This document shows, one piece after another, positions 33,832-49,989 of a DNA stretch of 64,000 bases. The notes beneath the pieces were generated by a model. That model was given only the letters and a program-made list of their open reading frames with translations. It was not told the DNA's origin and did no database searches. The DNA comes from Rhodanobacter thiooxydans (GTDB lineage: Bacteria > Pseudomonadota > Gammaproteobacteria > Xanthomonadales > Rhodanobacteraceae): NCBI RefSeq assembly GCF_030291135.1, contig NZ_CP127409.1, forward strand, positions 2,294,001-2,358,000, given 5' to 3'. The position numbers were made by a program, and so were the translations under genes. Positions within the stretch are counted from its first letter, which is position 1. Every line of letters begins with the position of its first letter.

Positions 33832-33993
33832 GAGCGACTGGCCATGATCCGCTCCGCAGCTGCGGTCCGGGCACGTCGTCACGACAGACATCAGGACGAA
33901 GAAAGATTTTTCCACGACAATGGCGCGCGACAACCTTCCCTCCACTCCCCCTCTGGTATCCGGTCCGATCATGACTCCGGGAAAGCGCACGCC

Positions 33994-35448
33994 GTGCCAC
34001 TTCGACTGAGCAAGGCCATTCCAAAACACCGTTGGCACACATGCCTGCTCGGCGTCGTGTTCTCCGGGCTGGCCGGCTGCGCCGCGCCGCTGCCCAGGCT
34101 GGAGCCGCCGGTGCCCGCGCAATGGCAGCATGCGATCGCCTCGGACCCGGCCCGGCCGACCGACCTGCATGGCTGGTGGCATGCGTTCGCCGACCCCGAC
34201 CTCGACGCGCTGGTCGACCGCGCGCTGGCCAACAACCTCGACGTGGCGCAGGCGGCCGAACGGCTGCGGGCCGTGCGCAGCCTGCACGAACGTGCCCACG
34301 CCCGCTATCTGCCGGAGCTGCACGCGCGCACCCATGACGCGATCGACCCGGACGCCAGCGCCAGCTTCTTCGTGGCCGGCTTCGATGCCAGCTGGGAGCT
34401 GGGCCTGTTCGGCCGCGCCGAAGGCACCCGGCGCGAATCGCAGGGCGCGCTGGATGCCGGTGTGGCCGACCTGCACGCCGCCCGGGTCAGCCTGGTCGCC
34501 GAAGTGGTACGCGAGTGGATCAACCTGCGCACCGCGCAGCAGCAGGAACAGCTGCTGCAGCAGATCAGCCAGCAGCGCCGGCACGCATGGGAACTGCAGC
34601 AGACGCGGCAGCACCTGCAGCTGGCGGCACCCGCCGTGGTGGACCAGGCGCAGGCCGCCTGGGCGCAGGCCGAAGCCGCCCTGGCCGCGCCACGCCAGGC
34701 CGCCGACGCCAGCGCACAGCGGCTGGCCGTCCTGCTCGGGCAGAACCACCCCGACCCGGCCTGGCTGCAGGCAGGCACGCCGCCCGAACTGGGCGCCTGG
34801 CAACTCGACGGCACCCCGGCCGAGCTGCTGCGCACGCGGCCGGAGATCGCCCGCGCCGAGGCGGACGTGCTGCGCAGCGCCGGCGAACTGGCGCTGACCC
34901 ACGCCGAGCTGTTCCCCAGCATCGGCCTTGGCGCCTCGATGGTCTGGGCCACCGACATCAACAACAACCACCGCGTTTCCACCACCCCGAACGGCATCGG
35001 GTCGCTGGGCCCGGTGATCGACATTCCACTGTTCGACTGGGGCATGCGGCTGGCCGCCACGCACGCCAAGGCACATGAACTGAAAGCCAGCGTGCTGGCC
35101 TACCGGCAGGCGGTGCTGCAGGGCGTGGCCGAAGTGGAAACCGCGCTGGGCAGCCTGCAACAGCAGCGCCAGCGCGAGCAGCAGGACACACTGGCCTGGC
35201 AGGCACTGCAGCGCGCCGACCAGGCCGTGCAGGTGCGCGCCGGGCTGCAGCTGGGCAGCCCGCTCGATCGCACCGAAAGCGGGATCGCCGCCGACCAGGC
35301 CGCGCTCGAACTGGCCGATGCCCGCGCCGCGCACAGCCTGGCCTACGTCGCGCTGTTCAAGGCGCTGGGCGGCGCACCGCTGCCCGTACCGGAAACGGAA
35401 CAGGCCACCTCGCCGGCGCCTGCCGGCGCCGGCGGAGTATCGCGCTGA
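33994..35448 (+). CDS. NodT-family outer-membrane efflux lipoprotein
   Basis: 484-aa outer-membrane factor of TolC/OprM type. Lipobox LAGC (Cys29), DLHGWWHAFADPDLDALVDRALANNLDVAQAAERLRA, and the duplicated coiled-coil pattern with PIDIPLFDWG in the second half. The start is uncertain: GTG at 33994 gives a clean signal peptide, while 33844 would add an unlikely 50 residues. Its last base overlaps the permease ATG (TGATG). Confidence 0.87.
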   Translation: MPLRLSKAIPKHRWHTCLLGVVFSGLAGCAAPLPRLEPPVPAQWQHAIASDPARPTDLHGWWHAFADPDLDALVDRALANNLDVAQAAERLRAVRSLHERAHARYLPELHARTHDAIDPDASASFFVAGFDASWELGLFGRAEGTRRESQGALDAGVADLHAARVSLVAEVVREWINLRTAQQQEQLLQQISQQRRHAWELQQTRQHLQLAAPAVVDQAQAAWAQAEAALAAPRQAADASAQRLAVLLGQNHPDPAWLQAGTPPELGAWQLDGTPAELLRTRPEIARAEADVLRSAGELALTHAELFPSIGLGASMVWATDINNNHRVSTTPNGIGSLGPVIDIPLFDWGMRLAATHAKAHELKASVLAYRQAVLQGVAEVETALGSLQQQRQREQQDTLAWQALQRADQAVQVRAGLQLGSPLDRTESGIAADQAALELADARAAHSLAYVALFKALGGAPLPVPETEQATSPAPAGAGGVSR

Positions 35449-36578
35449 TGGTGGCCCTGGCGCGCAAGACGCTGATCTACGAGTGGCGGCGCTTCCTGCC
35501 GGCGATGCTGGCGGTCGGTTTCGCCGGCCTGCTGCAGTTGCTGCAGATCGCGCTGGTACTGGGCATCTTCGGCAGCACCAGCCTCTACATCACCGGCTCG
35601 TCGGCCGACGTGTGGGTCGGCTATCCCGGTACGCAGAGCGTGAGCCTGGGCCGCACGATCGACGCCGACGTGGAGTCGCGCCTGCTGATGGACCCGGCGG
35701 TGCAGCAGGTCGAGCCGTACCTGTGGGTCGACGGCGACTGGCGCGGACCGCACGAGACCGGTGGCGTCTCGGTGTTCGTCTCCGGCATCGACCCGGCCGC
35801 CGACGGGCTGATGTTCTCGAAGGTCCTGTCGCCCGCGCTGCGCAGGCAACTGGCCGAACCGGACGCGATCGTCATCGACCGTTCCGCGCAGGACCAGCTC
35901 GGCATCGACATCGGCCAGACCGCCACCATCAACGGCCAGCGGGTGCGCGTGGTCGGCATCAGCACCGGCTTGCGCGCGCTCGGCGGCGTCAACGTGCTGT
36001 GTTCGCTGGACACCGCACGCCGGCTGGACAACGACCCGGCCGACCTCGGGCCGACCTACCTGGTCGCCAGACTACGCGACCCGGCCCAGGCCGACGCGGT
36101 GGCGCTGCGCCTGCGCGGCGACACCGCCTTCGGCCCGTATACGGCATGGAGCGCCGGCGACTTCGCCAGGCTATCGGTGCGCTACTGGCTGTTCGACACC
36201 GGCGCCGGCGCCGGCGTGCTGTTCCTGGCCGGCATCGTGTTCCTGGTCGGTGCGGCGATCACCAGCCAGACCCTGATCGCCGCGGTCAACGGCTCGGTGC
36301 GCGAATACGCCACGCTCAACGCGCTCGGCGTGGGCGTGAATGCGTTGCGCAAGGTGGTGCTGGAGCAGGCGTTCTGGGTCGGTGCGCTGGGCCTGCTCGG
36401 CGCCAGCGTGTTCGGCGTCGTGCTGATGCTGCTGGCACGCAGCCAGGACGTGCCGGTGGTGCTGAATGTCCCGGCGGCGCTGGCCTGCATCGTCCTGGTG
36501 ATGGGCCTGGCAGCCGTCTCCGGCCTGGCCGCGATGCGCAGCCTGCGCCGCGCCGACCCCGCCACCTTGCTGAGGTAG
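35448..36578 (+). CDS. FtsX-like ABC transporter permease (DevC/MacB-type)
   Basis: 376-aa inner-membrane permease. TM1 (about 16-42) is followed by a large periplasmic domain (50-245) and three C-terminal TM helices, the FtsX/MacB_PCD layout. LNALGVGVNALRKVVLEQAFWVG is the coupling-helix region. Works with the following ATPase and HlyD adaptor in a DevABC-like system. Coupled to the outer-membrane factor by TGATG. Confidence 0.88.
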   Translation: MVALARKTLIYEWRRFLPAMLAVGFAGLLQLLQIALVLGIFGSTSLYITGSSADVWVGYPGTQSVSLGRTIDADVESRLLMDPAVQQVEPYLWVDGDWRGPHETGGVSVFVSGIDPAADGLMFSKVLSPALRRQLAEPDAIVIDRSAQDQLGIDIGQTATINGQRVRVVGISTGLRALGGVNVLCSLDTARRLDNDPADLGPTYLVARLRDPAQADAVALRLRGDTAFGPYTAWSAGDFARLSVRYWLFDTGAGAGVLFLAGIVFLVGAAITSQTLIAAVNGSVREYATLNALGVGVNALRKVVLEQAFWVGALGLLGASVFGVVLMLLARSQDVPVVLNVPAALACIVLVMGLAAVSGLAAMRSLRRADPATLLR

Positions 36579-36583
36579 CCGCG

Positions 36584-37336
36584 ATGCCACCTGTCCCCGC
36601 CATCGAGCCAGTGCCTGCGCCCGCGCTGCAGGCCGAGAACGTCAGCAAGGCGTTCATCTCCGGCCACCAGCGCACGCAGGTGCTGGACCACTTCTCGCTG
36701 AGCATCGACGCCGGCGAACTGACCCTGATCTCCGGCCCGTCCGGCTGCGGCAAGAGCACCCTGCTGGCGATCCTGAGTGGCCTGCAGAAGGTCGATGCCG
36801 GCCGCGTGCTGGCGCTGGGCAGCGAGCTGGGCCAGCTCGACCTGCGCGCGCTGGAACGCTTCCGCCTGCAGCACACCGGCTTCGTGTTCCAGGGCTTCAA
36901 CCTGTTCCCCGCGCTGTCCGCGTTCGAGCAGGTCGAGCTGCCACTGAACCACATGGGCCTGTCGCGTGACGAGGCGCACCAGCGCACGCAACAGTCGCTG
37001 GAGGAAGTCGGCCTGGCGCACCGCATGCGGCTGCGCCCTTCCGAGCTGTCCGGCGGCGAGAAGCAGCGCGTGGCGATCGCCCGCGCGCTGGCCAAGCGGC
37101 CGGAGCTGCTGTTCGCCGACGAGCCGACCAGCGCGCTGGACGCTGCCAACGGCCAGATCATCATCGACATCCTGCACCGCATCGCCCACACCCATGGCAC
37201 CACCGTGCTGTGCGTCAGCCACGACCCGCGCCTGGTCGTCCACGCCGACCGCGTGCTGTCGATGGAGGACGGCCGTATCCTCAGCGACCGGCACATTCGC
37301 ACCGCGGTCATCGACAGCAAGGAAAACCCCGCATGA
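36584..37336 (+). CDS. ABC transporter ATP-binding protein (LolD/MacB-like)
   Basis: 250 aa. Walker A GPSGCGKST, Q-loop FQGFNLFP, signature LSGGEKQRVAIARAL, Walker B LLFADEPTSALD, and H-loop VSHD. Drives the preceding permease. The ATG at 36584 lies 5 nt after the permease stop; its stop overlaps the HlyD gene (ATGA). Confidence 0.92.
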   Translation: MPPVPAIEPVPAPALQAENVSKAFISGHQRTQVLDHFSLSIDAGELTLISGPSGCGKSTLLAILSGLQKVDAGRVLALGSELGQLDLRALERFRLQHTGFVFQGFNLFPALSAFEQVELPLNHMGLSRDEAHQRTQQSLEEVGLAHRMRLRPSELSGGEKQRVAIARALAKRPELLFADEPTSALDAANGQIIIDILHRIAHTHGTTVLCVSHDPRLVVHADRVLSMEDGRILSDRHIRTAVIDSKENPA

Positions 37337-38319
37337 AGCCGCCAGCCTTCCACCCGTCATGGCGCACGCACGCCGCGCGCCTGCTCCGCCGCGGCGGCCT
37401 CGCGCTGGCCGTCGCCTCGCTGCTGCCGGCATGCTCGCCCTCCGGCCCGGCGCCGGCCGGCACCGGCACGCAAGCCGCAACCGCCTACGCCGCCGTCGCA
37501 CGCGGCAAGGTCGACATCGAGGGCGGCCTGCTGAACCTGACGATGCCGCGCGAAGGCACGCTCGCCAGGGTCGCCGTGCATGAAGGCGACCACGTCAAGC
37601 AGGGCCAGTTGCTGGCGGCGCTGGACACCGAGCCGGCCCGGCTGGCGGTCGAGGCGGCCCAGGCGCAACTGGAGCAGGCGCAGGCGCAGCTGAAGCTGCT
37701 CGGGATCAAACAGGCCGCGGCGAAGCAGCGCGCCCAGCGACTGGCCGCCGCGGCCGCCGCCGGCGCCGGCGACGGTCAGAGCGCCGACGATGCGCGCGAG
37801 GCGGCGGCGCAAGTCGACGCCGAACAGCAGTCCGCTCGCGCGGCGCAGAGCATGGCCAGCCAGAAGCTGGACGAGGCCCGCTACGAGCTGAAGCAGCGCA
37901 GCCTGCTTGCCCCGTTCGACGCCGACGTGGTGCGGGTATCGGCCCAACCCGGCGCCAGCGTGTCGCCAACCTCCGGCCCGTTGTTCGTGCTGCTGCCGCA
38001 GAAGCCGCGGATCGTCCGTGCCGAACTCAACGACAGCTTCGCCGCGGCGGTGCACCCGGGCATGCCGGCCGAAGTGGTCGCCGAAAGCGGCGGCGACCAT
38101 GCCCGCTGGAGCGCACACGTGCTGCGTATCGGCCAGGTCTACGGACCGGCCACGCTGGAGAACGACCCGCAGATACGCGCCAATGCGCGCACGGTGGAAT
38201 GCGTGCTGGCGTTCGACCAGCCCGACGCCGGGCAGACCCGTGGGCTGCGCATCGGCCAGCGCGTGATGGTGCGCTTCGGCCATGCCGCGACACCGGCCGC
38301 CGCCGCATCGAAAGACTGA
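37333..38319 (+). CDS. HlyD-family periplasmic adaptor lipoprotein
   Basis: 328-aa adaptor with a basic N-terminus, a hydrophobic stretch and a probable lipobox LPAC (Cys34). Lipoyl half-motifs (GTLARVAVHEGDHVKQGQLLAALD and LAPFDADVVRVSAQPGASV) flank a long Ala/Gln-rich coiled coil (about 95-190), which contacts the TolC-type partner. It completes the tripartite transporter. No terminator is visible in the 66-nt gap after it. Confidence 0.88.
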   Translation: MKPPAFHPSWRTHAARLLRRGGLALAVASLLPACSPSGPAPAGTGTQAATAYAAVARGKVDIEGGLLNLTMPREGTLARVAVHEGDHVKQGQLLAALDTEPARLAVEAAQAQLEQAQAQLKLLGIKQAAAKQRAQRLAAAAAAGAGDGQSADDAREAAAQVDAEQQSARAAQSMASQKLDEARYELKQRSLLAPFDADVVRVSAQPGASVSPTSGPLFVLLPQKPRIVRAELNDSFAAAVHPGMPAEVVAESGGDHARWSAHVLRIGQVYGPATLENDPQIRANARTVECVLAFDQPDAGQTRGLRIGQRVMVRFGHAATPAAAASKD

Positions 38320-38385: not shown

Positions 38386-39222
38386 GTGATCCAGCAGACT
38401 GACTTTTTCTTCGAAGGCGGGCGCAGCGGCGTGCTGCTGATCCATGGCCTCACCGGCACGCCGATGGAGATGAAGCTGCTCGGCAAGGGCCTGAACCGCG
38501 CCGGCTTCACCGTGCACGGCATGCAACTGGCTGGCCACTGCGGCAACGTCGACGACCTGCTCGCCACCGGCTGGCGCGACTGGTACGCCAGCGTCGAGCG
38601 CGCCGCCGATGAGATGCTCGGCAAGGTCGACCAGCTGTTCGTCGGCGGCCTCTCGATGGGTGCGTTGCTGGCGTTGAAACTGGCCGCGGACCGGCCCGGG
38701 CGGATCGCCGGCGTGGGCGTGTATGGTGCCACTTTCCGCTACGACGGCTGGAGCATCCCGAAGCTGGCGCGACTGTCGTTCCTGCTGCCGCTGCTGAAGA
38801 AACTCGGCATCGGCCGCGACCGCAGCTTCATGGAGCAGCCGCCCTACGGCATCCGCGACGAGCGCCTGCGCGCGCAGGTCAGCTCGGCGATGCTCGGCGG
38901 CGACAGCGCCGCCGCCGGCCTGCCCGGCAACCCGTGGTACTCGCTGGCCGAAATGTACGGCCTGGCCGCCAGCGTGCGCCGCCAGCTGCCGCAGGTGACC
39001 GCGCCGTGCCTGGTCGCCCACGCCAGCGACGACGACGTCGCCAGCCCGAAGAACGCCGAGCTGGTGATGCGCGGGGTCAACGCGCCGACCGAACTGCTGC
39101 TGCTCGACGACAGCTACCACATGATCACCATCGACAAGGAACGGCGCACGCTGATCGATCGCTCGGCCGCATTCTTCGACAGCATCGCCGCGTCGAACGG
39201 CACGCAGCGCGCCGCGGCCTGA
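38386..39222 (+). CDS. Alpha/beta hydrolase (Est30-like carboxylesterase)
   Basis: 278 aa. Oxyanion HGLTGTP (residues 20-26), nucleophile elbow GLSMG (Ser about 94), acid D in HASDDDVASPKNAE and His in DSYHMITIDKER, as in Geobacillus Est30-type esterases. GTG start. It heads a coupled operon with two SMR-like proteins (TGATG) and a DegT aminotransferase, and may act on an acyl intermediate of that pathway (inference). Confidence 0.87.
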   Translation: MIQQTDFFFEGGRSGVLLIHGLTGTPMEMKLLGKGLNRAGFTVHGMQLAGHCGNVDDLLATGWRDWYASVERAADEMLGKVDQLFVGGLSMGALLALKLAADRPGRIAGVGVYGATFRYDGWSIPKLARLSFLLPLLKKLGIGRDRSFMEQPPYGIRDERLRAQVSSAMLGGDSAAAGLPGNPWYSLAEMYGLAASVRRQLPQVTAPCLVAHASDDDVASPKNAELVMRGVNAPTELLLLDDSYHMITIDKERRTLIDRSAAFFDSIAASNGTQRAAA

Positions 39223-39602
39223 TGATGCCGGCGGAGGGATCCATCTCCACCCTCGTCGCGGGCCTGTGGCTGCTCAACATCGTGCTCGACACCGGCGGCC
39301 AGCTGGCGTTCAAGGCCGCGGCCGGTGACGAAACGGCTGGCGACGGCCTGGCGCGCTGGAAGCACATGGCGTCACGGCCATGGCTGTGGCTGGGCGTTGC
39401 CAGCTATGTGATCGAATTCCTGGTGTGGATCGCGTTCCTGTCGCTGATCCCGCTGTCCGAAGGCGTGCTGCTGGGTTCGATCAACATCGTGGTGATCATG
39501 ATCGCCGGACGCTTCCTGTTCGGCGAACAACTCACCCGGCTGCGGGTCATCGGCATCGCGCTGGTCACGCTCGGCGTAGCGATCGTGGGGCTGGGCACAT
39601 GA
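39222..39602 (+). CDS. SMR/EamA-like small transporter, subunit 1
   Basis: 126-aa membrane protein with four transmembrane helices; LGSINIVVIMIAGRFLFGEQLTRLRVIGIALVTLGVAIVGLG is the SMR/EamA C-terminal pattern. It overlaps its neighbours on both sides (TGATG, ATGA). Paired half-transporters of this kind occur as heterodimers, e.g. ArnE/ArnF, which flip a lipid-linked aminosugar. Confidence 0.83.
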   Translation: MMPAEGSISTLVAGLWLLNIVLDTGGQLAFKAAAGDETAGDGLARWKHMASRPWLWLGVASYVIEFLVWIAFLSLIPLSEGVLLGSINIVVIMIAGRFLFGEQLTRLRVIGIALVTLGVAIVGLGT

Positions 39603-40000
39603 AGCGCTTCTACCTGCTCGGCTTCCTGCTGCTGATGGGTTTCGACACCCTCGCGCAGATCAGCTTCAAGTACGCCGGCACCCAGGCACTGCCGGTGGAA
39701 GCCAGCCTGGCGTGGCTGTTGCGCGTGTTCGGCCAGCCGTGGGTCTATGGCGCGGTGATCGGCTACGTGGGCGCATTCTTCACCTGGATGGCGTTGCTGA
39801 AACACGCGCCGATCGGCCCCGCCTTCGCCGCCTCGCACCTGGAGGTGGTGTCGGTGATGCTGCTGTCGATCTGGCTGTTCGACGAACACCTCACCCTCGC
39901 CCGCGCGCTCGGCGCCATCGCGATCATCGCCGGCATCGTCTGCCTCGGCTTCGCCGAGAGTCGCGAACACGCGCCAGAAGCCGACCCGGCACACGGCTAG
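39599..40000 (+). CDS. SMR/EamA-like small transporter, subunit 2
   Basis: 133-aa, four TM helices, with VVSVMLLSIWLFDEHLTLARALGAIAIIAGIVCLGFAES, again the EamA/SMR signature but clearly divergent from subunit 1. The direct overlap (ATGA) and equal size support a heterodimer. The DegT aminotransferase begins 22 nt later, a layout that recalls ArnE/F with ArnB. Confidence 0.83.
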   Translation: MKRFYLLGFLLLMGFDTLAQISFKYAGTQALPVEASLAWLLRVFGQPWVYGAVIGYVGAFFTWMALLKHAPIGPAFAASHLEVVSVMLLSIWLFDEHLTLARALGAIAIIAGIVCLGFAESREHAPEADPAHG

Positions 40001-40022
40001 GCGCCCGCGCTACGCTGCACCC

Positions 40023-41234
40023 ATGTTGCCCCGCCGCCGCCACGAACTGCCGCCCACCGCCGGCCTGCCGCTGCAGCTCGGCGATCTGCGCCCGGGCCCG
40101 GCAACGCTGGCCGACGACGTCGCCGCCCTGCTGGGCACGCCGCCGCTGCAACTGGAATGTTCCGGCACCGCCTCGCTGCTGCTCGCGTTGACCACGCTGC
40201 ACGAGCTGCAGCCGCAGCGCCGCCGCGTGGTGGTGCCGGCGTATACCTGCCCGCTGGTGGCGATCGCCGTGCAGCAGGCCGGGCTGGAACTGCAGCTGTG
40301 CGACCTCAAGCCCGGCCATTACGACATGGATCCGGTCGCGCTGCGCGCGGCCTGCGACGAACGCACGCTGGCGATCGTGCCCACCCACCTCGCCGGCCGC
40401 GTCGCCGACGTCGACGACGCGCTCGCCGTCGCACGCCAGCTCGGCGCGTACGTGATCGAGGATGCCGCGCAGGCGCTGGGGGCGCGCCGCGGCGACGCCA
40501 GCGTGGGGCTGGCCGGCGACGTGGGTTTCTTCAGCCTGGCCGCCGGCAAGGGCCTGTCGATCTACGAAGGCGGCCTGTTGCTGGCGCGCGACCCGGCGCT
40601 GCGCGAACGGCTGGCGCACACCGCCGCGCGCCTCGTGCCGCGCCGCGCCGGCTGGGAATGGCGGCGCAGCCTCGAACTGCTCGGCTACGCCGCGCTGTAC
40701 CGGCCACGGGGCCTGCGCCTGGCCTACGGCGGTCCGCTGCGCCGCGCCTTGCGCCGCGGCGACCCGGTCGCCGCAGTGGGCGACGACTTTCCGCTGGCGA
40801 TCCCGCTGCACCGCGTCGGCCGCTGGCGTCAGGCCGTCGGTGCCCATGCCGTGCCGCGACTGCCGGCATTTCTCGGCCAGCTGGCTACGCAAGCGCAACG
40901 TCACCTGTCGCGACTGCGCCGCATCGACGGCATCGAGGTGCTCGACGATCCCGCCGGTGCTCACGGCACCTGGCCGTTTCTGCTGTTGCTGCTGCCGGAT
41001 CGGCAACGTCGCGATGCCGCGCTGGCGCAGCTGTGGTCGTCCGGCCTCGGCGTCAGCCGCCTGTTCATCCACGCCCTGCCCGACTACGCCTACCTCGCCC
41101 GCGTGGTTCCCGCCGCCGAGGTGCCGCACGCCCGCGACTTCGCCGCACGCACTCTCACCATCGGCAACAGTCCGTGGATGACCGATGCGGATGTCGAGGC
41201 GATCTGCGGCGTGCTGGAAGCGGTGTTGCGCTGA
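40023..41234 (+). CDS. DegT/DnrJ/EryC1/StrS-family PLP aminotransferase
   Basis: 403 aa, fold type I. PLP-binding lysine Lys176 in SLAAGKGLSIYEGG; Asp147 in EDAAQALG; VVVPAYTCPLVAIAV is the early family segment. Enzymes of this family aminate keto sugars or related ketones (ArnB is one). Here no sugar-nucleotide gene is adjacent. Its stop is immediately followed, with no spacer, by the stop of the opposite-strand arginase-like gene. Confidence 0.87.
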   Translation: MLPRRRHELPPTAGLPLQLGDLRPGPATLADDVAALLGTPPLQLECSGTASLLLALTTLHELQPQRRRVVVPAYTCPLVAIAVQQAGLELQLCDLKPGHYDMDPVALRAACDERTLAIVPTHLAGRVADVDDALAVARQLGAYVIEDAAQALGARRGDASVGLAGDVGFFSLAAGKGLSIYEGGLLLARDPALRERLAHTAARLVPRRAGWEWRRSLELLGYAALYRPRGLRLAYGGPLRRALRRGDPVAAVGDDFPLAIPLHRVGRWRQAVGAHAVPRLPAFLGQLATQAQRHLSRLRRIDGIEVLDDPAGAHGTWPFLLLLLPDRQRRDAALAQLWSSGLGVSRLFIHALPDYAYLARVVPAAEVPHARDFAARTLTIGNSPWMTDADVEAICGVLEAVLR

Positions 41235-42116
41235 CTACGCCGCGCGCGTTGCGATCGCCGCCAGCAGCTGCAGGTTCAGTGCGTGCTGCTGCGTCTGCCA
41301 GCCGGCGAGCTGCGCGGGATCGATTGCCGGCTGCGCATCCATCGCCGACAGGCGCCGTTTCCACCAGCTGCGGTAGCGGTAGTGCGAGACCTCGCCGTTG
41401 ATGTCGCTGCCGACCAGGCCATGGCGCAGGCTGTCGATCAGCGCCAGCGCGTGCGGCAGCAGCAGGCGGCCCTGGTCCCAGTTCGTCCGTGCCACTTCGG
41501 CGGCAAACACATCCTTGTCGATCGACAGGTAGCTCGGCGCCGTCTGCGTGCGCTGGCATTCGATGAACGCATCGACCATCGCCTCGGCCGAGTCGAAACC
41601 ACGGAACGCCCGCGCCAGGCCAAGCCGGCGCGCCCAGCGCGTGTCGACGCCCATGCTCCAGTAGGTCAGCTTGTGCCTGAGCAGCGGCGTGAGGTAGTTC
41701 TCCCACGCATGGCCACCACCGATGTCGCCGGAGGTGATGCCGAGCACATGCACCTGGCTGACCTGCGGCAACATCGCCACCTTGCGTACCCACGAGCCGC
41801 AATGCACGCCGAACGGGAAGCGCATGTTGTCCGGATGGTTGTCCAGCACCACCACCTGGAACGGCGTGGCCGGTCGCAGGCGCGCGATCAGCGGCCAGCT
41901 GAGGTGGTGGAAGTCGCCGCTGCCGGTGAACACGGTGCCATGGCGTTCCGGCAGCAGCTGGTCCAGCATCGTGCCGAAGCGCCGCATCGTCGCCAGCGAG
42001 CAGCCGAAGCGGATCGACTCCTGCCAGTGCTCCAGCGGCAGCACCAGGCGGTCCGGCAGCGGCCCGACCGAGCGGTCGATGTCGAGCACCACGGGACGGT
42101 TCGCGAGGTCATTCAT
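41235..42116 (-). CDS. Arginase/ureohydrolase-fold protein with variant motifs
   Basis: 293 aa, not a canonical arginase, but the metal-binding motifs of the fold are all recognisable: GSGDFHH (His70 or His71; cf. GGDHS), DNHPD (Asp92, His94, Asp96; cf. DAHxD), SIDKD (Asp200, Asp202; cf. SxDxDxxDP) and GSDINGE (Asp238, Glu242; cf. GFDxxEVNP). It is therefore probably a metal-dependent amidohydrolase of unknown substrate. Its ATG overlaps the FemAB-like stop by 8 nt (ATGAATGA). I infer a deacylase or ureohydrolase step in the pathway encoded around it. Confidence 0.68.
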   Translation of the reverse strand: MNDLANRPVVLDIDRSVGPLPDRLVLPLEHWQESIRFGCSLATMRRFGTMLDQLLPERHGTVFTGSGDFHHLSWPLIARLRPATPFQVVVLDNHPDNMRFPFGVHCGSWVRKVAMLPQVSQVHVLGITSGDIGGGHAWENYLTPLLRHKLTYWSMGVDTRWARRLGLARAFRGFDSAEAMVDAFIECQRTQTAPSYLSIDKDVFAAEVARTNWDQGRLLLPHALALIDSLRHGLVGSDINGEVSHYRYRSWWKRRLSAMDAQPAIDPAQLAGWQTQQHALNLQLLAAIATRAA

Positions 42117-43179
42117 CGGCGGCTTCCGCGGCCGTCTGCCAGTGGCGGTCGCTCTCGAAATGGCTGCCCAGACGGCGCAGCAGCGCGCGCAGCAGGGGGT
42201 TGCGGGCGTACACCGCATGACGGGTGAAGGTCATGCGGGCGCCGAGGAAGGATTTCACCTCGGGGTCGGTCCAGCCGGCCACGTAGTGGCTCAGGCCACG
42301 CTCGCGCGCGTAGCCGAGGTTGTGCATCCAGCTCACGAAGTAGAGGTTGTGTTCGCGCGCCGCCGGGTAGGCGAAGCCGATGTACTTGTCGATCAGCTTG
42401 CCACCGTGCTCGTAGCAGAGGTTCCAGCCGATCATCTCCCCTTCGTGGCGGTAGACGAACACCACGCCGCCGCTGGCCGCGTCCTGCAGCAACAGGCGGA
42501 AGAAGGCCGGACTCAGGCGGTCGAAGTGGATCGTGCTTTGTACGTACACGTTGTCGAACAGCGCGTAGAGCGCCGCCAGCGTCGTCTCGTCGCCGAAGCA
42601 GGCGTCGCCGGTGCGCAGCGTCTCGATCGCCAGCCCGGCGCGCGAGCGCAGCTTGCGCCGGATATTCTTGCGCCGGCCGGACGACAGCCGGGCCAGGTAC
42701 TCGTCGTCCGAGCCGAAGTCGATCGGCACCCAGGCCAGTGCCTGGCCTTCCAGCAGCACGAAACCCTCGGCTTCGCAGGCTGCGGCGAAGGCGCGCGCGT
42801 GGGCGTTCGCCGCGTCGTCCAGCAGCGGCGAATCCTGCGCGATGTCCTTCACGATCAGCAACCGGCACTCGCTGCCGAAAGCCGTTTTCAGCCCATGCGC
42901 CAGCGCCACCGGCGCTACCTGCGGCGGCAGCGGCGCGTACTCGGTCACGGTGGTACCGGCGAAGCGGGTGCGCCAGCGCAGCAGCCGGCTCCAGTGGCGA
43001 TACAGCGGCAGCGCGGCCACCCGCCGGCGCAGCGCGTCGTCGGCCGTGGTCAGCAGGTCGAACGGCGCCACGAAGGCCGGCATGCCCTGCGGCGAATGGT
43101 CCACCGCGAAACCGAGCGGCGGCTCGACCATGAACGCCGCAAGCAGCGCGTCCGGCTCCAGTTGCGAAATGAAAGGCAT
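42109..43179 (-). CDS. FemAB/BioF2-like GNAT acyltransferase
   Basis: 356 aa. C-terminal GNAT-type (Acetyltransf_6) domain: FVYRHEGEMIGWNLCYEHGGKLIDKYIGFAY, then a conserved basic/Gly patch (KSFLGARM). Relatives move aminoacyl or acyl groups, including acyl-ACP-dependent N-acyltransferases of bacterial sphingolipid and ornithine-lipid pathways. It is divergent from the ACP gene by 93 nt, which suggests that ACP as its donor. Assignment to the broad family is firmer than the chemistry. Confidence 0.75.
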   Translation of the reverse strand: MPFISQLEPDALLAAFMVEPPLGFAVDHSPQGMPAFVAPFDLLTTADDALRRRVAALPLYRHWSRLLRWRTRFAGTTVTEYAPLPPQVAPVALAHGLKTAFGSECRLLIVKDIAQDSPLLDDAANAHARAFAAACEAEGFVLLEGQALAWVPIDFGSDDEYLARLSSGRRKNIRRKLRSRAGLAIETLRTGDACFGDETTLAALYALFDNVYVQSTIHFDRLSPAFFRLLLQDAASGGVVFVYRHEGEMIGWNLCYEHGGKLIDKYIGFAYPAAREHNLYFVSWMHNLGYARERGLSHYVAGWTDPEVKSFLGARMTFTRHAVYARNPLLRALLRRLGSHFESDRHWQTAAEAADE

Positions 43180-43272
43180 GAGTAAGCGAGTTTGCCTAGA
43201 CTTGTGTCAGCTAGCCTGCGTGAGGCACCTTGCGCCAGCCTTCCATTGTTGCCTGCCATCAAGGACCCTGTC
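43180..43272. promoter_or_regulatory. Divergent promoter region between acyltransferase and ACP
   Basis: 93 nt separate two start codons on opposite strands, so promoters for both operons must lie here or inside the genes. TTGCCT-14-TAGCCT is visible on the plus strand but the spacing is poor. No operator-like palindrome stands out. Confidence 0.4.
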
Positions 43273-43545
43273 ATGACCGCAACGACCCAGCAGCAAGTCT
43301 TCGAGATCATCGCCACGCAGGCCAAGATCGACGCGGCGACGATCAAGCCCGAATCCACCCTGAAGGACCTCGGTATCGCTTCGCTGGAGGCGATCGAGCT
43401 GATCTTCGACATCGAAGAGCACTTCGACATCACCTTCCCCGACCAGCAGGGCGCCAACTTCGACAGCGACACCGCGCAGAGCCTGGTCGACGCAGTGGAC
43501 AAGGCGCTGGCCGACAAGGCTGCCGCCGGCGAGGGAGCGAACTGA
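43273..43545 (+). CDS. Acyl carrier protein
   Basis: 90 aa acidic helical protein with the phosphopantetheine site DLGIASLEAIELIFDIEEHFDI (Ser37). It diverges from the housekeeping AcpP pattern (GADSLDTV), so it is probably dedicated to the local pathway. Needs activation by a phosphopantetheinyl transferase elsewhere. Its stop overlaps the ketosynthase ATG (TGATG). Confidence 0.9.
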   Translation: MTATTQQQVFEIIATQAKIDAATIKPESTLKDLGIASLEAIELIFDIEEHFDITFPDQQGANFDSDTAQSLVDAVDKALADKAAAGEGAN

Positions 43546-44777
43546 TGCAGAGCCTGCCGCTGCGCCGCGTGGTGATCACCGGCATGGGCGCAATCAGCCC
43601 GCTCGGCGTCGGTGCCGCGGCGCTGTGGCAAGGCCTGTGCGAAGGGCGCAGCGCGATTGGCCCGCTGCGCCACCCCGACGCCGAACGATTGCGCGTAAAG
43701 GTCGCCGCGCAGGTGCCGGCCAGCTTCGACCCGGCGGCGGACATCGACGAACGCACCCTGCCGATGCTCGACCGCACCTCGGAATTTGCGCTGCACGCGG
43801 CGCGTGAAGCGGTCGCTCAATCCGGGGTGGATTTCGCCAACCACGGACTCGGACTGCGCACCGCGGTGATCGTCGGCACCGGCGTGGGTGGCGAGACCAC
43901 CCAGGACGAGCAGAGTCGGCGGCTGTACGCGGAGAATTCCAACCGCGCGCATCCGCTCACCATCGTGCGGCTGATGACCAACGCCTCGGCCAGCCAGATC
44001 AGCATCGCGTACGGTTTGCGCGGCCCCACCTTCGCGGTCGCCAGCGCCTGCGCCTCGGCCAACCACGCGATCATCCAGGCCGCACAAATGATCCGCTACG
44101 GCATGGCTGACGCCGCCATCACCGGCGGCACCGAGGCCTGCCTCACCTACGGCGCGCTGCGTGCGTGGGAAGCGATGCGCGTGCTGGCCGACGACACCTG
44201 TCGCCCGTTCAGCGCCAACCGGCGCGGCCTGGTGCTCGGCGAAGGCGCGGCCATCTTCGTGCTGGAATCCATGGAGCATGCGCAGGCGCGCGGCGCCACC
44301 ATCCTCGCCGAACTGGCCGGCTGCGGCATGACCGCCGACGCCACCGACATCGTGATGCCCAGCGCGGAAGGCTCGTCCGCCGCGATGCGCCAGGCGCTGG
44401 ACGACGCCGGCCTGGCGCCGCAGGACGTCGACTACATCAACGCCCACGGCACCGGTACCCAGGCCAACGACGCCACCGAGACGAAGGCGATCCGTCTCGC
44501 CTTCGGCGCGCACGCCGACCGCCTCGCGGTGTCCTCCACCAAGTCCATGCACGGCCACGCCCTGGGCGCCTCCGGCGCACTGGAACTGGTCGCCGCGATC
44601 GGTGCCCTGCGCGACAACGTGGTGCCGCCCACCGCGAACCTCGACAAGATCGACCCCGCCTGCGACCTCGACTACGTGCCGAACACCGCGCGCGAGATGC
44701 CGGTGCGGGCGGTGCTCAGCAACTCGTTCGCGTTCGGCGGGTTGAACGCGGTGCTGGCGTTGAAGCGGGCGCCCTGA
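43545..44777 (+). CDS. Beta-ketoacyl-ACP synthase (FabF-type)
   Basis: 410-aa condensing enzyme of KAS II type. Catalytic triad Cys169 (ASACASANH), His301 (NAHGTGT) and His336 (KSMHGH, with Lys333). No reductase or dehydratase is near, so it may perform one chain extension, or a decarboxylative condensation, on acyl-ACP. Coupled to the ACP gene; followed by repeats rather than another gene. Confidence 0.92.
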   Translation: MQSLPLRRVVITGMGAISPLGVGAAALWQGLCEGRSAIGPLRHPDAERLRVKVAAQVPASFDPAADIDERTLPMLDRTSEFALHAAREAVAQSGVDFANHGLGLRTAVIVGTGVGGETTQDEQSRRLYAENSNRAHPLTIVRLMTNASASQISIAYGLRGPTFAVASACASANHAIIQAAQMIRYGMADAAITGGTEACLTYGALRAWEAMRVLADDTCRPFSANRRGLVLGEGAAIFVLESMEHAQARGATILAELAGCGMTADATDIVMPSAEGSSAAMRQALDDAGLAPQDVDYINAHGTGTQANDATETKAIRLAFGAHADRLAVSSTKSMHGHALGASGALELVAAIGALRDNVVPPTANLDKIDPACDLDYVPNTAREMPVRAVLSNSFAFGGLNAVLALKRAP

Positions 44778-44810
44778 GCGGGAACGCCTCAAGCAGCCCG
44801 CCTCTCACCC

Positions 44811-45125
44811 GTCATTCCTGCGAAGGCAGGAATCGCACTTCACCCGTCGCGCAAGACGACGCATGCCTTGTAGAAGCGCGCTTGTGCGCGATGCTCTCGG
44901 GGCATTCAGAGCGAAGAGCTTTCGTCTGCCTTCGGCAGCCGAGTTACTTTCTCTTTGCGTGGCCACGCATGCGCAGGAGCGCATGTGAACGGCGAAGCCG
45001 GCCCGAAGGGCGGAGGGCAGGATGCCCGGAGTGTCGACCCCGACTCACCACCGCACAGGGGCCCCCGGTAGAGCAGCGGGCCATCCTGGCCCGCACTTTC
45101 AGAAAAAGCCGGAGCAAAGCCAAAG
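44811..45125. repeat. Repeat-rich gap with partial long-hairpin element
   Basis: 44815-44834: ATTCCTGC-gaag-GCAGGAAT. 44873-44899: GCGCGCTTGTGCGC-type GGAGC repeat. 44906-44955: TCAGAGCGAAGAGCTTTCGTC... ACTTTCTCTT, the left arm of the hairpin found complete at 11404-11509, without its right arm. The rest (to 45125) is GC-rich sequence without a convincing gene. The adjoining 45126-45383 has lower GC and no gene either. Confidence 0.7.
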
Positions 45126-45383
45126 CACCGCGCGCGGCCTGTCATGTCCCTTCACAAGGGCAAGAGTTACAGAGCCAATTGCTGATCGACCGCTTGAATC
45201 CAAGACCCGAAGCGGACGTTCACGGACCCGGCTCGCCGTCCGGCTATACGCTTGGTTGTGAGCCGGACTCGGCGAAGATAAGCTCCCTTCAGAACAAGGG
45301 GTTGCGTCAGAATTTCTTGGCGCGATCGCGCATGTATAACCGGGCTCACGGGTCCGCCTATTCAGTAGTTAGAGGTCGAAAAC

Positions 45384-45887
45384 ATGAAGCCACAAGAGCT
45401 CATGACACTTGCGCTACGAGTGTTGGCCGTTTTCGTAGCTTCGCAGGCCTTTGAATACCTAGCTGACGCTGCCGCCTTCGTGGTTATGCCGATGCAAAAT
45501 GAGGTCGGCATGCCGTTCTCAATCATCGCCATAATTTCGTTGTTCGGGCCGGCATTCGCGGCAATCGTCATCTGGTGGTGTGCACCTCACCTCGCGAGGC
45601 TGGCGGCGCGGGGCATCAGCGATGAACCCGTGGCCCACGTAAACGTCCAGTCAGTTGTCAACGCAACATTCGTCGCCGCAGGCACGCTCATCTTCGTCTT
45701 TGCGTTTCCGGCGTTGGTCGCTACGGCTATTCGTGCGTTTGGCACGCCTTCGCTATCCATAGTCGCCTCGCTGGTATCAAGTGTTTTACGGTGCCTGCTC
45801 GGTGTTGTTCTTGTTTTTGGCTCTCGGGCTACGTCGAAGCTTCTGCTTCGGCTCCGTTACGCTGGCACCGGTGGTCGCAGCCTCTAA
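45384..45887 (+). CDS. Integron-cassette membrane protein of unknown function
   Basis: 167 aa with four predicted transmembrane helices and no recognised family. Codon use is less GC-biased than the neighbours, and the stop (TAA) lies inside the first bases of an attC site, as usual in gene cassettes. A core-like GTTAGAG (45368-45374) sits 15 nt before the ATG and may be the 5' recombination point. The gene is therefore best read as a laterally acquired cassette. Confidence 0.75.
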   Translation: MKPQELMTLALRVLAVFVASQAFEYLADAAAFVVMPMQNEVGMPFSIIAIISLFGPAFAAIVIWWCAPHLARLAARGISDEPVAHVNVQSVVNATFVAAGTLIFVFAFPALVATAIRAFGTPSLSIVASLVSSVLRCLLGVVLVFGSRATSKLLLRLRYAGTGGRSL

Positions 45888-45937
45888 CCATTCGTTCAAG
45901 GCGGACGGCTACGCCGCCGCTTAACTCCAGCGTTAGA
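45883..45937 (+). other. attC recombination site (integron cassette)
   Basis: 55 nt from TCTAAC to GTTAGA with the two-box structure TTCGTTCAAG ... CTTAACTCCAGC and a central GCGG/CCGC stem. It matches the layout and much of the sequence of the attC of aadA cassettes as I recall it. The G^TTAG core is at 45932-45937. No integron integrase gene is in the window. Confidence 0.92.
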
Positions 45938-45958
45938 ACGGCTAGGGGAACTACACGG

Positions 45959-46147
45959 ATGGCCGTCAATCAGCAGGCACAGCAATGCTGGGATCGAGCG
46001 TGTGATTGCCTCGCAACTGCAAAGATTTTTGAGCGCCGAGCAAGGGCATACCGTACCAAGCTGGATTGGCTTTCCTACTTGGGAATCGGGGGGACGCCGG
46101 GAGGGCGCCGACTGGTCGGTTGGCGGCACTTGCCCGATGGTCGCTGA
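45959..46147 (+). pseudogene. Truncated SLATT-like effector fragment in second cassette position
   Basis: 62 codons beginning 27 nt after the attC core. Residues 10-41 (W-x3-CDCLATAKIFERRARAYRTKLDWLSYLGI) resemble the N-terminus of SLATT two-TM effector proteins of nucleotide-triggered conflict systems. The first membrane helix expected after LGI is absent and the frame breaks into unrelated sequence. No second attC is visible. So it is a decayed cassette; the SLATT reading is by pattern only. Confidence 0.5.
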
Positions 46148-46306
46148 CCGACAAAAGAGGCGTTCGCGACCGTCATGTGTTCGGGAAGGCTCGTTGCCGC
46201 CACGCGGTTGTGCGAACACATGCTGTAAAACGCATTCAAGAAAAAGCCCGTTCCACATATCTCCGTCGTGAAGTAGCGTTGCCACCAATCAACGAGGAAA
46301 CGAGCC

Positions 46307-47536
46307 ATGAAAAGGGCAATGTTCCGCTGCTTGATGCTGCTGATTCCGATGTTTCCACTGATCGCGGCAGCGGCGCCCGGTTCCAGCCGGTATCTTTTCG
46401 TGTGGGCCATGGAAGCCAGTCATCCTCACGCCGCTGATACGGCAATGACGCCGGCCGGTATCGCCGCAAGGCGTGTTCGACTCGGACTGGGCAACGACTT
46501 CCTCGCCGTGTTCGATGTCGGTAAAGGACCGTCGTTCGGAAAGCTCGTGGCGATGCTGCCCGTTGGTGAGGCGGTGATGGCGCATCACACGAACTATGCG
46601 GAACCCCCGAATGGTGTCCTGTATGCCAACGACTGGTTCGGGAACAGTACTTACGTCTTTGACCTTCGTGACCCCGTGCATCCGCGGTTGGCGCGGAAAT
46701 TCGGTAGCGTCGGCACTTTCGGCTATCCACACTCGTTCGCCTATCTGTCAAACGGAAATATGTTGGCGACCTTCCAGTATTCCGGCGGGTTCAATCATGC
46801 CTCGGGCGGACTGGTGGAATTCGATCCGCAAGGACGGGTCGTGAGAACTGCGTCGGCGATCGTGCCAGGGCATCCCAACATTCGCCCGTACAGCTTGGCA
46901 GTTGATGAAAAGCTCAACCGCGTAGTCACCGGCAGCGCGGACATGATGGGCGCGCAGCCCAGCCACGTGGCGCAGGTCTGGCAGCTTTCCGACCTGAAGT
47001 TGATCAGAACCCTGCCGCTGCCGCCGCAACCCGACTGGTTTTACGATACGGCTGCGGATTCGTCCGAGCCTCGCCTGCTGGCAGACGGCAAAACAGTCGT
47101 CGTACCGACGTTCAACTGCGGTCTTTTCCTGGTTCAGAACCTGGCGGGCGATAATCCATCGCTGCAACATGTCTATGACTTCGGCTACCGCACCTGCGAG
47201 GTGCCGGTAGTCGCGGGCAATTTTCTGGTGGAAACGATGCAGAGCGGGCACGCCATCGCGAGTCTCGACATGCATGATCCGGAACATCCTCGCGAAGTCA
47301 GCCGCATTCTGCTACCGCCGGATGAATACCCGCATTGGCTATCCCTCGAACCGGGCGGCAACCGTCTGGTTATCACGGGTTATGGCGCGCTCGATACCAA
47401 AGTGCGCTTCGCCACGATTGATCGCCGCACCGGCAAACTGACACTCGAGTCAGATGTGATCGAATTGACGCGCGCGTGGCCGGATGGTTGGAAGGGGAGC
47501 GCCATTCCGCACGGCACCGTTTTCAGCAACCCTTGA
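46307..47536 (+). CDS. Secreted selenium-binding-like beta-propeller protein
   Basis: 409 aa with a signal peptide (1-23). Repeated blade-like motifs and conserved His/Cys patches (HHTNY, YPHSFAYL, PTFNCGLF, PHWL, PHGTVF) resemble SBP56/methanethiol-oxidase-type proteins and YncE-like propellers. A copper site built from the histidines is possible. Its neighbours give no pathway context: an integron remnant upstream and repeats downstream. GC content is slightly below the genome level. Confidence 0.7.
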   Translation: MKRAMFRCLMLLIPMFPLIAAAAPGSSRYLFVWAMEASHPHAADTAMTPAGIAARRVRLGLGNDFLAVFDVGKGPSFGKLVAMLPVGEAVMAHHTNYAEPPNGVLYANDWFGNSTYVFDLRDPVHPRLARKFGSVGTFGYPHSFAYLSNGNMLATFQYSGGFNHASGGLVEFDPQGRVVRTASAIVPGHPNIRPYSLAVDEKLNRVVTGSADMMGAQPSHVAQVWQLSDLKLIRTLPLPPQPDWFYDTAADSSEPRLLADGKTVVVPTFNCGLFLVQNLAGDNPSLQHVYDFGYRTCEVPVVAGNFLVETMQSGHAIASLDMHDPEHPREVSRILLPPDEYPHWLSLEPGGNRLVITGYGALDTKVRFATIDRRTGKLTLESDVIELTRAWPDGWKGSAIPHGTVFSNP

Positions 47537-47539
47537 GGC

Positions 47540-47780
47540 GGTACTGCGAGGAAGCAATCCTCGCCAAGTCATGCGGGCGAACCATCGAAAGCCAATATCG
47601 TGGTCTCTTGCTTTTGAAGCTCTCGCTCTCTCCCAAATAACACACATAAGCGAGCGGGCTCCTGCAAAGGTATTCATTGCCAGGCGAAGTGCGATGCCTG
47701 CCTTCGCAGGCATGACGGATGTGAGGGTGCGATGCCTGCCTTCGCAGACATGACGGGGAGAGGGAGAAAGCCGCGGGTAT
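47540..47780. repeat. Repeat island with copies of the 11.5-kb elements
   Basis: 47650-47725 is a near-identical copy of 11537-11610 (GCGAGCGGGCTCCTGC through the GCCTGC-cttc-GCAGGC hairpin). A second copy of the hairpin follows at 47727-47755 with one base changed (GCAGACAT). No gene is visible in this gap. Confidence 0.8.
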
Positions 47781-47781
47781 G

Positions 47782-47812
47782 AAAAAGGCCCGGCAGTCAC
47801 CTGCCGGGCCTT
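47782..47812 (-). terminator. Rho-independent terminator of the class III aminotransferase
   Basis: On the minus strand AAGGCCCGGCAG-gtga-CTGCCGGGCCTT followed by TTTTT (47786-47782), 19 nt past the stop codon. Confidence 0.88.
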
Positions 47813-47830
47813 CGATCCACATTGCGACTA

Positions 47831-49234: not shown

Positions 49235-49287
49235 CGGAAATCCGGAGTCGGTAAACAGGATGGGAAAAGCACGCGGGCTGGTGGCGG

Positions 49288-49989
49288 TCAGGCCAGCGCG
49301 ACCGGCGCCGGCACGGCAGGGCGGTCGAACAGGCTGCCGTCGAGCAGTTGCGGCAACAGTTCGAGCGCGTCCTCGAAGCCGGTGATCGGCACGTAGGGAA
49401 TGCCGGCGGCGCGGCAATGCTCAATCAGCCGGTGCTTGGCGAATACGAAGTCGACGTGGTCGGCGGCGCAGAAATCCGAGGCGCCGTCGCCGATCAGCAA
49501 GGTCTTCGCGCCCGTTTCGCGGGCCTGGGCCACGCAAGCGCACTTGCAGGTACCACTGCGGCAGCCGTCGGCCTGGAACGGCGAAGTCAACTGCCACTGT
49601 TTCGGTGGTGTGGCCGGCGCCAGGTGGTTCGCCGCCAGCGGCAGGTCGTCCAGGCCGTAGCGGGCGAGGATCCGGTGGATCGCATAATCGAGACCGTCGC
49701 TGACCACGCGGATCGGCACGCCCAGTTCGCGCGCCTTCGCCACGAAACCCGGAAACGCGTGGTCGATCCACATCTCGGCCAGGTGTGCGTCGAGTTCGGC
49801 GCGGCTCATCTGCAACAGGTCGACCTGCCCGGCCATGCACTCGCGCGAACCGATCCGGCCGGCGCGCCAGTCCTGTTCCAGCACTTCCCAGCCGGGACGA
49901 CCGAAACGGTCGAGCAGCGAGTCGATCACGTCCTCGACGGAGATGGTGCCGTCGAAGTCGCACAGGATGGTCCAGCCGGAAACGGGCAT
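49288..49989 (-). CDS. HAD-IB phosphatase (MtnX/SerB-like)
   Basis: 233 aa. Motif I CDFDGTIS (Asp11 nucleophile, Asp13), motif III/IV LLIGDGASDFCAA. The helical cap (WRAGRIGSRECMAGQVDLL) matches the MtnX / DKMTPP-phosphatase group, which acts in methionine salvage, but no other salvage gene is present. It could equally be a phospho-amino-acid phosphatase acting with the aminotransferase. Confidence 0.8.
   Translation of the reverse strand: MPVSGWTILCDFDGTISVEDVIDSLLDRFGRPGWEVLEQDWRAGRIGSRECMAGQVDLLQMSRAELDAHLAEMWIDHAFPGFVAKARELGVPIRVVSDGLDYAIHRILARYGLDDLPLAANHLAPATPPKQWQLTSPFQADGCRSGTCKCACVAQARETGAKTLLIGDGASDFCAADHVDFVFAKHRLIEHCRAAGIPYVPITGFEDALELLPQLLDGSLFDRPAVPAPVALA

Follow-up and report, generated by a model that had tools for sequence, protein, structure and literature searches.

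A patchy proteobacterial gene cluster around an arginase-fold and a FemAB-like enzyme: a candidate pathway for an unusual nitrogen-bearing lipid and its export

What do bacteria make with an arginase-fold enzyme and a FemAB-like transferase encoded in overlapping genes among aminotransferases, small transporters and an acyl carrier protein? The question is raised by a 64,000-nucleotide stretch of the genome of Rhodanobacter thiooxydans (contig NZ_CP127409.1, positions 2,294,001 to 2,358,000), referred to as the window, in which an earlier note had singled out eight genes at 38386-44777 as a candidate acyl-amine pathway cluster. These encode an esterase- and lipase-like hydrolase (EST), two SMR-type small transporters (SMR1 and SMR2), a DegT-type aminotransferase, an arginase-like protein (ARG), a FemAB-like transferase (FEM), an acyl carrier protein (ACP) and a ketosynthase (KS). 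All eight were located at the coordinates and on the strands given, and Pfam confirmed the family of each. Gene set and order stand as described, as do the overlapping junctions (TGATG for EST/SMR1 and ACP/KS, ATGA for SMR1/SMR2), the 8 nt overlap of the minus-strand FEM and ARG genes and the convergent stops of DegT and ARG, which abut with 0 nt between them. The description of these genes as packed without spacers fits most junctions but is a slight overstatement, with gaps of 22 nt between SMR2 and DegT and 93 nt between the divergent FEM and ACP genes. Likewise, the coordinates cover the core genes but cut the unit short: eight further genes recur with them, six upstream (31730-38319) and two downstream (47831-49989), the latter encoding a class-III pyridoxal-phosphate (PLP) aminotransferase (AT3) and an MtnX-like HAD-IB phosphatase (HAD). 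The whole cluster occupies about 31.7-50.0 kb of the window and comprises about sixteen genes (Table 1). It is a genuine but patchy unit, scattered through Proteobacteria. Each part comes from a known family, and the combination looks like an undescribed pathway for an unusual nitrogen-bearing lipid and its export. Specifically, we see about even chances that the product made and exported by this locus is a lipidic amine, either an aminolipid or an acyl-amine, destined for the envelope or the outside, under its own two-component system.

Neighborhoods were compared in 40 genome regions and 4 plasmid records, in 80 loci from named genomes and in regions added later; the named-genome loci are the best 80 of 543 confirmed relatives, taken best first and hence leaning to close kin. 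The 136 loci with an arginase-like gene are 125 distinct loci at the DNA level, eleven being present twice from two collections. When reduced to less than 90% identity, 89 non-redundant loci are obtained, and in 69 of these both flanks extend to 8.4 kb or more. Neighbor counts refer to these 69 and exclude duplicates, while catalytic-residue counts and the 29 gaps discussed below include them; AT3 was counted at 60% identity or above, the sensor kinase and response regulator at 40% or above. The association of these genes goes beyond chance. FEM accompanies ARG in 68 loci, at a distance of at most 200 bp in 60; the sole exception is an arginase-family protein of Parabacteroides, whose neighborhood is unrelated. 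SMR1 follows with 53, SMR2 and EST with 52 each, DegT with 46, AT3 with 45, HAD with 44, ACP and KS with 39 each, every exporter subunit with 32, the sensor kinase with 22 and the response regulator with 21. FEM, ARG, the SMR pair, EST, AT3 and HAD are the most constant members, and DegT and ACP-KS, which had been placed at the core of the pathway, are optional. In two loci of the same class (L190 and L191), ARG, both SMR genes, HAD, AT3, EST, FEM, kinase and regulator are present, whereas DegT, ACP and KS are missing from the stretch. Other examples in which the stretch has neither DegT nor ACP-KS are L055, L056 and the Agrobacterium and Rhizobium records.

Most members are found again in Rhodanobacter, Dyella, Frateuria, Luteibacter, Xanthomonas and Comamonadaceae. 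On plasmids of Rhizobium, Agrobacterium and Bartonella, the set is rearranged or partial; pieces are also plasmid-borne in Roseomonas and Xanthomonas sacchari. The closest ARG relative, among the best 80 of 543, is from Rhodanobacter (87%). Among 299 sampled genomes of the order, 74 carry the arginase-like gene (E<=1e-5), 70 of them together with AT3 (E<=1e-90); 9 genomes have AT3 only and 216 neither. Wider samples show the pieces to be rare: of 274 genomes of the class, 3 have AT3 (E<=1e-120; own genome included), and of 398 genomes of the phylum, 16 have the arginase-like gene (E<=1e-20; 6 from the same order). The earlier note would have abandoned its proposal if homologs were co-located in no other genome; this is not so, as co-located homologs occur far outside Xanthomonadales. 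Further, membership largely persists while gene order shuffles between lineages, which argues for function over mere inheritance. The highest correlations between identity matrices, all of which include species history, are those of ARG-FEM (0.96), EST and the FtsX-type permease (0.94) and AT3-HAD (0.93).

ARG belongs among the ureohydrolases, judging from its modeled fold and its metal-ligand set. By sequence, it scores just under the gathering threshold of PF00491 (21.6 against 22 bits). Its AlphaFold model (predicted local distance difference test, pLDDT, 93.5) gave 93 Foldseek matches in the PDB at E<=0.001, and all 50 of those listed are ureohydrolases (E 3.1e-8 to 7.8e-6), led by proclavaminate amidinohydrolase and guanidinopropionase. 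His70/His71, Asp92, His94, Asp96, Asp200 and Asp202, which we take to be the metal ligands by comparison with arginase and agmatinase, are kept in 42/42 sequences, and the presumably catalytic His105 in 40/42. Fold and full ligand set are shared with arginase, agmatinase and proclavaminate amidinohydrolase, whereas identity to the listed PDB ureohydrolases is only 11-19%, Cys106 and Trp109 are invariant and specific to this family, and the acid that we assume to bind guanidinium in arginases is found one residue further on, as Asp in 14/42. It should be mentioned that two arginase-like genes (G232:C1:1272449-1273300 and G244:C24:22924-23775) contain one in-frame stop each, possibly through decay or sequencing error.

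FEM matched only PF13480 and PF04339 in Pfam at E<=0.01; PF02388 and PF09924, which we take to be FemAB and LPG_synthase_C, did not match at that threshold, and no PDB chain was matched by its sequence profile at E<=0.01. Its AlphaFold model (pLDDT 92.7) adopts a double-GNAT fold that resembles aminoacyl-tRNA-dependent transferases most closely: the first 27 matches are MprF, aminoacyl-phosphatidylglycerol synthases, FemX and the aminoacyl-tRNA-dependent peptide synthases Sbb17/Sba18 (best E 1.2e-12). The fold is thus shared with MprF and FemX, while their sequence families are not matched. FEM had been proposed to join a group derived from acyl-ACP; the fold likeness makes acyl-ACP only one option for the donor and a tRNA-dependent variant possible. 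N-acyltransferases are known among GNATs of the PF13480 type, the Caulobacter ceramide synthase being one of them.

The catalytic residues of the remaining enzymes are well preserved. AT3 Lys299 and Asp270 (the count starting two residues ahead of the ATG) are kept in 114/114 loci, both aspartates of the HAD DxD motif in 109/109 and DegT Lys176 and Asp147 in 96/96. DegT scores with PseC/ArnB-type models, far under their equivalog cut-offs, and had been cast as the key aminating enzyme; the most conserved aminotransferase is instead AT3, paired with a phosphatase and encoded outside the coordinates first given. In sequence, the solved structures closest to AT3 are those of a hypothetical 4-aminobutyrate aminotransferase (7vno) and of an alanine/serine racemase; a role of AT3 as an amino-acid racemase is conceivable. 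In Roseomonas and Aureimonas, a class-III enzyme of the glutamate-1-semialdehyde-aminomutase type lies beside the cluster in place of AT3, suggesting that amination is needed even there. HAD reaches the subfamily cut-off of TIGR01489 (92.1 of 81.55 bits) and neither of two MtnX equivalogs. One option for a building block comes from analogy: RtxA is described as a class-III aminotransferase that together with a phosphatase makes serinol from dihydroxyacetone phosphate (PMC3222319), and AT3 and HAD could make serinol in the same way. The nearest solved relatives of EST are monoacylglycerol lipases, together with LipS and Est30-type carboxylesterases. Its nucleophile is Ser in 102/106 loci and Cys in 4, with Asp and His in 106/106; the exchange to Cys might mean acyl transfer instead of hydrolysis in those four. 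KS retains its triad in 90/90 loci and ACP its serine in 89/89. KS reaches the PRK07314 subfamily (441.9 of 387 bits) and falls short of the FabF equivalog (460.1 of 493.75).

Export was first assigned to the SMR pair; a tripartite ABC exporter with a TolC-type outer-membrane factor probably shares the task. The best or only NCBIfam matches of the ATPase and permease are DevA (220.1 of 295.8 bits) and DevC (94.6 of 290.35); DevB reached 57.3 of 129. The Dev exporter family is known for heterocyst glycolipid export. As in DevBCA-HgdD, permease, ATPase, adaptor and outer-membrane factor are encoded side by side, whereas here the exporter scores under the model cut-offs and accompanies biosynthetic genes of Proteobacteria. 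The response regulator is 66% identical to the regulator adjoining the same cluster in X. sacchari and the sensor kinase 50% to the kinase there. Regulators vary by lineage, from the OmpR type found here to an annotated sigma-54 type in Roseomonas and Aureimonas.

Fatty-acyl tailoring genes were found in some relatives. In Comamonas, Variovorax, Delftia and relatives, 9 loci (L136, L144-L147, L149, L150, L162 and L163) have a cyclopropane-synthase-family gene immediately after ARG and in the same orientation, 71-100% alike between loci and in one of them cut by a contig end. In Rhizobium CIAT894, a gene of this family is part of the same gene run; its product is 54% identical to the Comamonas protein and scores 595.9 bits with the cyclopropane fatty acid synthase model (cut-off 600). 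The same run contains an annotated fatty acid desaturase, for which NCBIfam gave no match, and a second Rhizobium record (L083) has a cyclopropane-synthase-family gene nearby. Because of these genes and the glycolipid-type DevBCA-like exporter, a lipidic, nitrogen-bearing product is favored, in line with the acyl-amine of the earlier note. ACP-KS and the lipase-like EST fit this picture.

From the gene set, its co-conservation, the catalytic residues, the predicted folds of two enzymes, the likeness of the exporter and the tailoring genes of some relatives, we infer substrates, an order of steps, a product and a purpose. AT3 and HAD would supply a small dephosphorylated amino building block, and FEM would link an acyl (or aminoacyl) group to an amine by an amide bond. 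The ureohydrolase-fold enzyme would then cut the joined product, in the simplest case by taking urea off a guanidino group and leaving a free amine, and EST could edit or release the acyl chain. Passage of an intermediate through the inner membrane would fall to the SMR pair, and onward transport of the product to the DevBCA-like exporter together with its TolC partner. ACP-KS, DegT, cyclopropane synthase and desaturase may represent lineage-specific tailoring of chain and head, with the PmrA-like regulator controlling the pathway.

Several observations weigh against this proposal. The DevA, DevB, DevC and PmrA scores all lie under the curated cut-offs, and Foldseek TM-scores are about 0.5 for the ARG model and about 0.5-0.56 for that of FEM. 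Only a minority of the 136 loci have fatty-acyl tailoring genes (9 loci and 2 Rhizobium loci), and six Dyella loci hold a distant cyclopropane-synthase homologue (36-38%) located 8-10 kb off, which was not counted. Further, 4 genomes of the order have the arginase-like gene without AT3 at E<=1e-90. In genus g7 (L167-L171), AT3, HAD and exporter are present in 5/5 loci and kinase and regulator in 4/5 with no other cluster gene in the stretch, and no arginase-like match was obtained in any of the five genomes. Dyella-type genomes (L175-L178 and L183) keep two halves at separate places, one with AT3, HAD and exporter, the other with EST-SMR-DegT/ARG-FEM/ACP-KS or the portion of it that was read, and L174 and L185 combine AT3, HAD, EST, the SMR pair and exporter, but neither shows ARG or FEM over the stretch that was read. 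Two half-modules that are able to part weigh against a single rigid pathway, and such halves may serve different molecules. Pressed further, this would make the exporter and AT3-HAD one system and the remaining half another, joined by chance or shared regulation. We consider this rather unlikely, given that AT3 adjoins ARG or ARG-FEM in Bartonella, Luteibacter, Comamonas and Agrobacterium and that EST correlates highly, species history included, with the exporter permease. Alternatively, the gene set might serve a diffusible metabolite or signal, namely a secreted small acyl-amine that is sensed by the adjacent kinase or acts on competitors and is not a membrane lipid. An exporter with an outer-membrane factor, a two-component system beside many copies and a patchy, partly plasmid-borne distribution are in keeping with such a role; however, no resistance or immunity gene was recognized among the proteins scanned, and the regulator type differs between lineages, unlike what one dedicated receptor for a signal would lead one to expect. 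We therefore hold a diffusible product to be unlikely, if conceivable.

The likeness of FEM to MprF and FemX allows for another chemistry, in which FEM would take an amino acid, arginine being a fitting one, off aminoacyl-tRNA and place it on an amine or lipid. The ureohydrolase would then convert the arginyl to an ornithyl group, yielding an ornithine-bearing lipid or peptide without OlsB. The first fold matches of FEM, its closeness to ARG in nearly all loci, overlapping here, and the complete metal-ligand set of its partner speak for this route, and MprF operons likewise have a hydrolase beside such a transferase. Set against it are the unmatched FemAB and LPG_synthase_C families, the TM-scores, the N-acyltransferases among PF13480-type GNATs and the displaced guanidinium-binding acid, and we judge it to be quite unlikely. 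A more specific version is more doubtful still: ornithine-bearing, polycationic lipids would arise by a new route, with a FemX/MprF-fold enzyme placing arginine from Arg-tRNA on an amino-lipid built by AT3 and HAD, the ureohydrolase converting it to ornithine, DevBCA-like export and PmrA-like control. To our knowledge, ornithine is carried by no standard tRNA. If true, the guanidino group would serve as a removable cap in an envelope system of this kind. Finally, DegT and the SMR pair might make and flip a polyprenyl-linked amino sugar for the decoration of lipid A, as ArnB and ArnE/F do. The weak ArnE and ArnF scores of SMR1 and SMR2, the PseC/ArnB-type DegT and a regulator that scores best with PmrA point in this direction, but the equivalogs are far from being reached (ArnB 72.9 of 631, ArnE 32.1 of 92 and ArnF 30.8 of 99 bits), a Pfam scan of 16 window proteins found no glycosyltransferase family (ArnC, ArnT), and DegT is absent from the stretch in L190, L191, L185 and L174, all of which carry the SMR pair. 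Such envelope amination is accordingly very improbable, and the Arn operon proper, OlsB lipids and sphingolipid synthesis were set aside, their defining features being missing from the cluster proteins scanned. A defense system and a phage origin were also rejected: PADLOC gave no match for six cluster proteins at E<=0.001, and PHROGs a single match for three proteins, to a generic esterase/lipase family.

In addition to the arrangements above, some loci hold reduced or altered sets. Bartonella has AT3-FEM-ARG only. In one Bartonella record (L040, 12900-15422), two genes on the opposite strand come after this trio; the product of one is unassigned, and the other encodes a DltB-like MBOAT acyltransferase (162.9 of 375 bits). 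Such an acyltransferase recalls envelope modification of the D-alanylation type. Agrobacterium combines ARG, AT3, HAD, hydrolase, GNAT and EamA genes with an exporter. A second cluster type, seen in L080, L081 and L082 of the same order, has KS-ACP-SMR2-FEM-EST-SMR1-ARG in one row, with ARG 33-35% identical, no DegT in the stretch and an AT3-HAD pair elsewhere. Five Dyella-type loci (L130, L134, L138, L140 and L143; one scanned) have a CAAX-protease-like membrane protein behind ARG. A cyanophycin-synthetase-like open reading frame (ORF) of 873 aa in three Pigmentiphaga/Alcaligenaceae loci (one scanned) was taken as a neighbor and not as part of the cluster.

In the window, KS and AT3 are separated by an insert with a GC content of about 0.59 over most of its length, compared with 0.64-0.71 in the flanks. 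The same gap in 29 other loci of this arrangement measures 90-129 bp (n=16), 160-359 bp (n=3) or 1.2-4.2 kb (n=10), or 12, 3 and 8 loci, respectively, when duplicates are left out (n=23), indicating that this spot repeatedly takes inserts. A short dispersed repeat lies close to both insert ends (44810, 47700 and 47738); it has 6 copies in the window against 0.05 expected, for a pattern picked after reading. The 409-aa ORF of the insert (46307-47536) has no Pfam match at E<=0.001 and a weak one to the methanethiol oxidase model (33.9 of 650 bits).

Table 1 Genes of the cluster and the insert, in window positions.
Feature	Position	Strand	Remarks
OmpR-type response regulator	31730..32419	+	best NCBIfam model PmrA, 216 bits (cut-off 330)
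Sensor histidine kinase	32416..33831	+	start overlaps regulator stop (ATGA)
Outer-membrane efflux protein, NodT/TolC type	33844..35448	+	start codon uncertain
FtsX/MacB-type permease	35448..36578	+	sole NCBIfam match at E<=1e-6 is DevC
ABC ATPase	36575..37336	+	best NCBIfam model DevA; start approximate
HlyD-type periplasmic adaptor	37333..38319	+	
Alpha/beta hydrolase (EST; esterase, lipase-like)	38386..39222	+	Pfam; Ser90-Asp216-His245
SMR/EamA-type small transporter 1 (SMR1)	39222..39602	+	weakly ArnE-like
SMR/EamA-type small transporter 2 (SMR2)	39599..40000	+	weakly ArnF-like
DegT/DnrJ/EryC1/StrS-type aminotransferase	40023..41234	+	optional in cluster family
Ureohydrolase-fold enzyme (ARG; arginase family)	41235..42116	-	
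FemAB-like double-GNAT transferase (FEM)	42109..43179	-	PF13480 (Acetyltransf_6) and PF04339 (FemAB_like)
Acyl carrier protein (ACP)	43273..43545	+	Ser37; optional
FabF-type ketosynthase (KS)	43545..44777	+	Cys169-His301-His338; optional
Insert of about 3.05 kb, outside conserved set	44778..47830		ORFs of 167 aa and 409 aa
Class-III PLP aminotransferase (AT3)	47831..49234	-	most conserved member
MtnX-like HAD-IB phosphatase (HAD)	49288..49989	-	

Compared with known lipid systems, the cluster is closest in its expected product class to the ornithine and glycine aminolipids made by OlsBA and GlsBA, in which an acyl group, possibly from acyl-ACP, is joined to an amine by an N-acyltransferase. 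In contrast to these systems, no match to the OlsB-type family PF13444 (presumably Acetyltransf_5) was obtained at E<=0.01, and aminotransferases, a phosphatase, a ureohydrolase fold, an SMR pair and a dedicated exporter are present. In bacterial ceramide synthesis, carried out by Spt, bCerS and CerR, bCerS is a GNAT enzyme. Two reports describe a cytoplasmic N-acyltransferase as well as a specialized ACP that serves Spt (PMC11087976, PMC11324152). A specialized ACP and, if FEM acts as one, an N-acyltransferase would be common to both, whereas the cluster has class-III and DegT aminotransferases in the place of Spt; within the cluster, to which the search was limited, no alpha-oxoamine synthase (Spt-like) family was found among the scanned proteins. 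The PmrAB-controlled Arn system shares a PmrA-like regulator, an ArnE/F-like SMR pair and an ArnB-like DegT fold with the cluster and differs in the glycosyltransferase and in the equivalog scores discussed above. A full-text search of the open-licence PMC literature found no description of this gene set, and the view that the combination is a candidate undescribed one stands on that basis.

If the product is a new aminolipid, the arginase-fold and FemAB-like genes would form a marker pair for finding producers, and the ureohydrolase fold would have gained a new role in lipid chemistry. It might also account for the unidentified aminolipids reported for such bacteria. The arginase-like gene is present in 74/299 sampled genomes of the order, and relatives are carried on plasmids of plant-associated Rhizobium and Agrobacterium.

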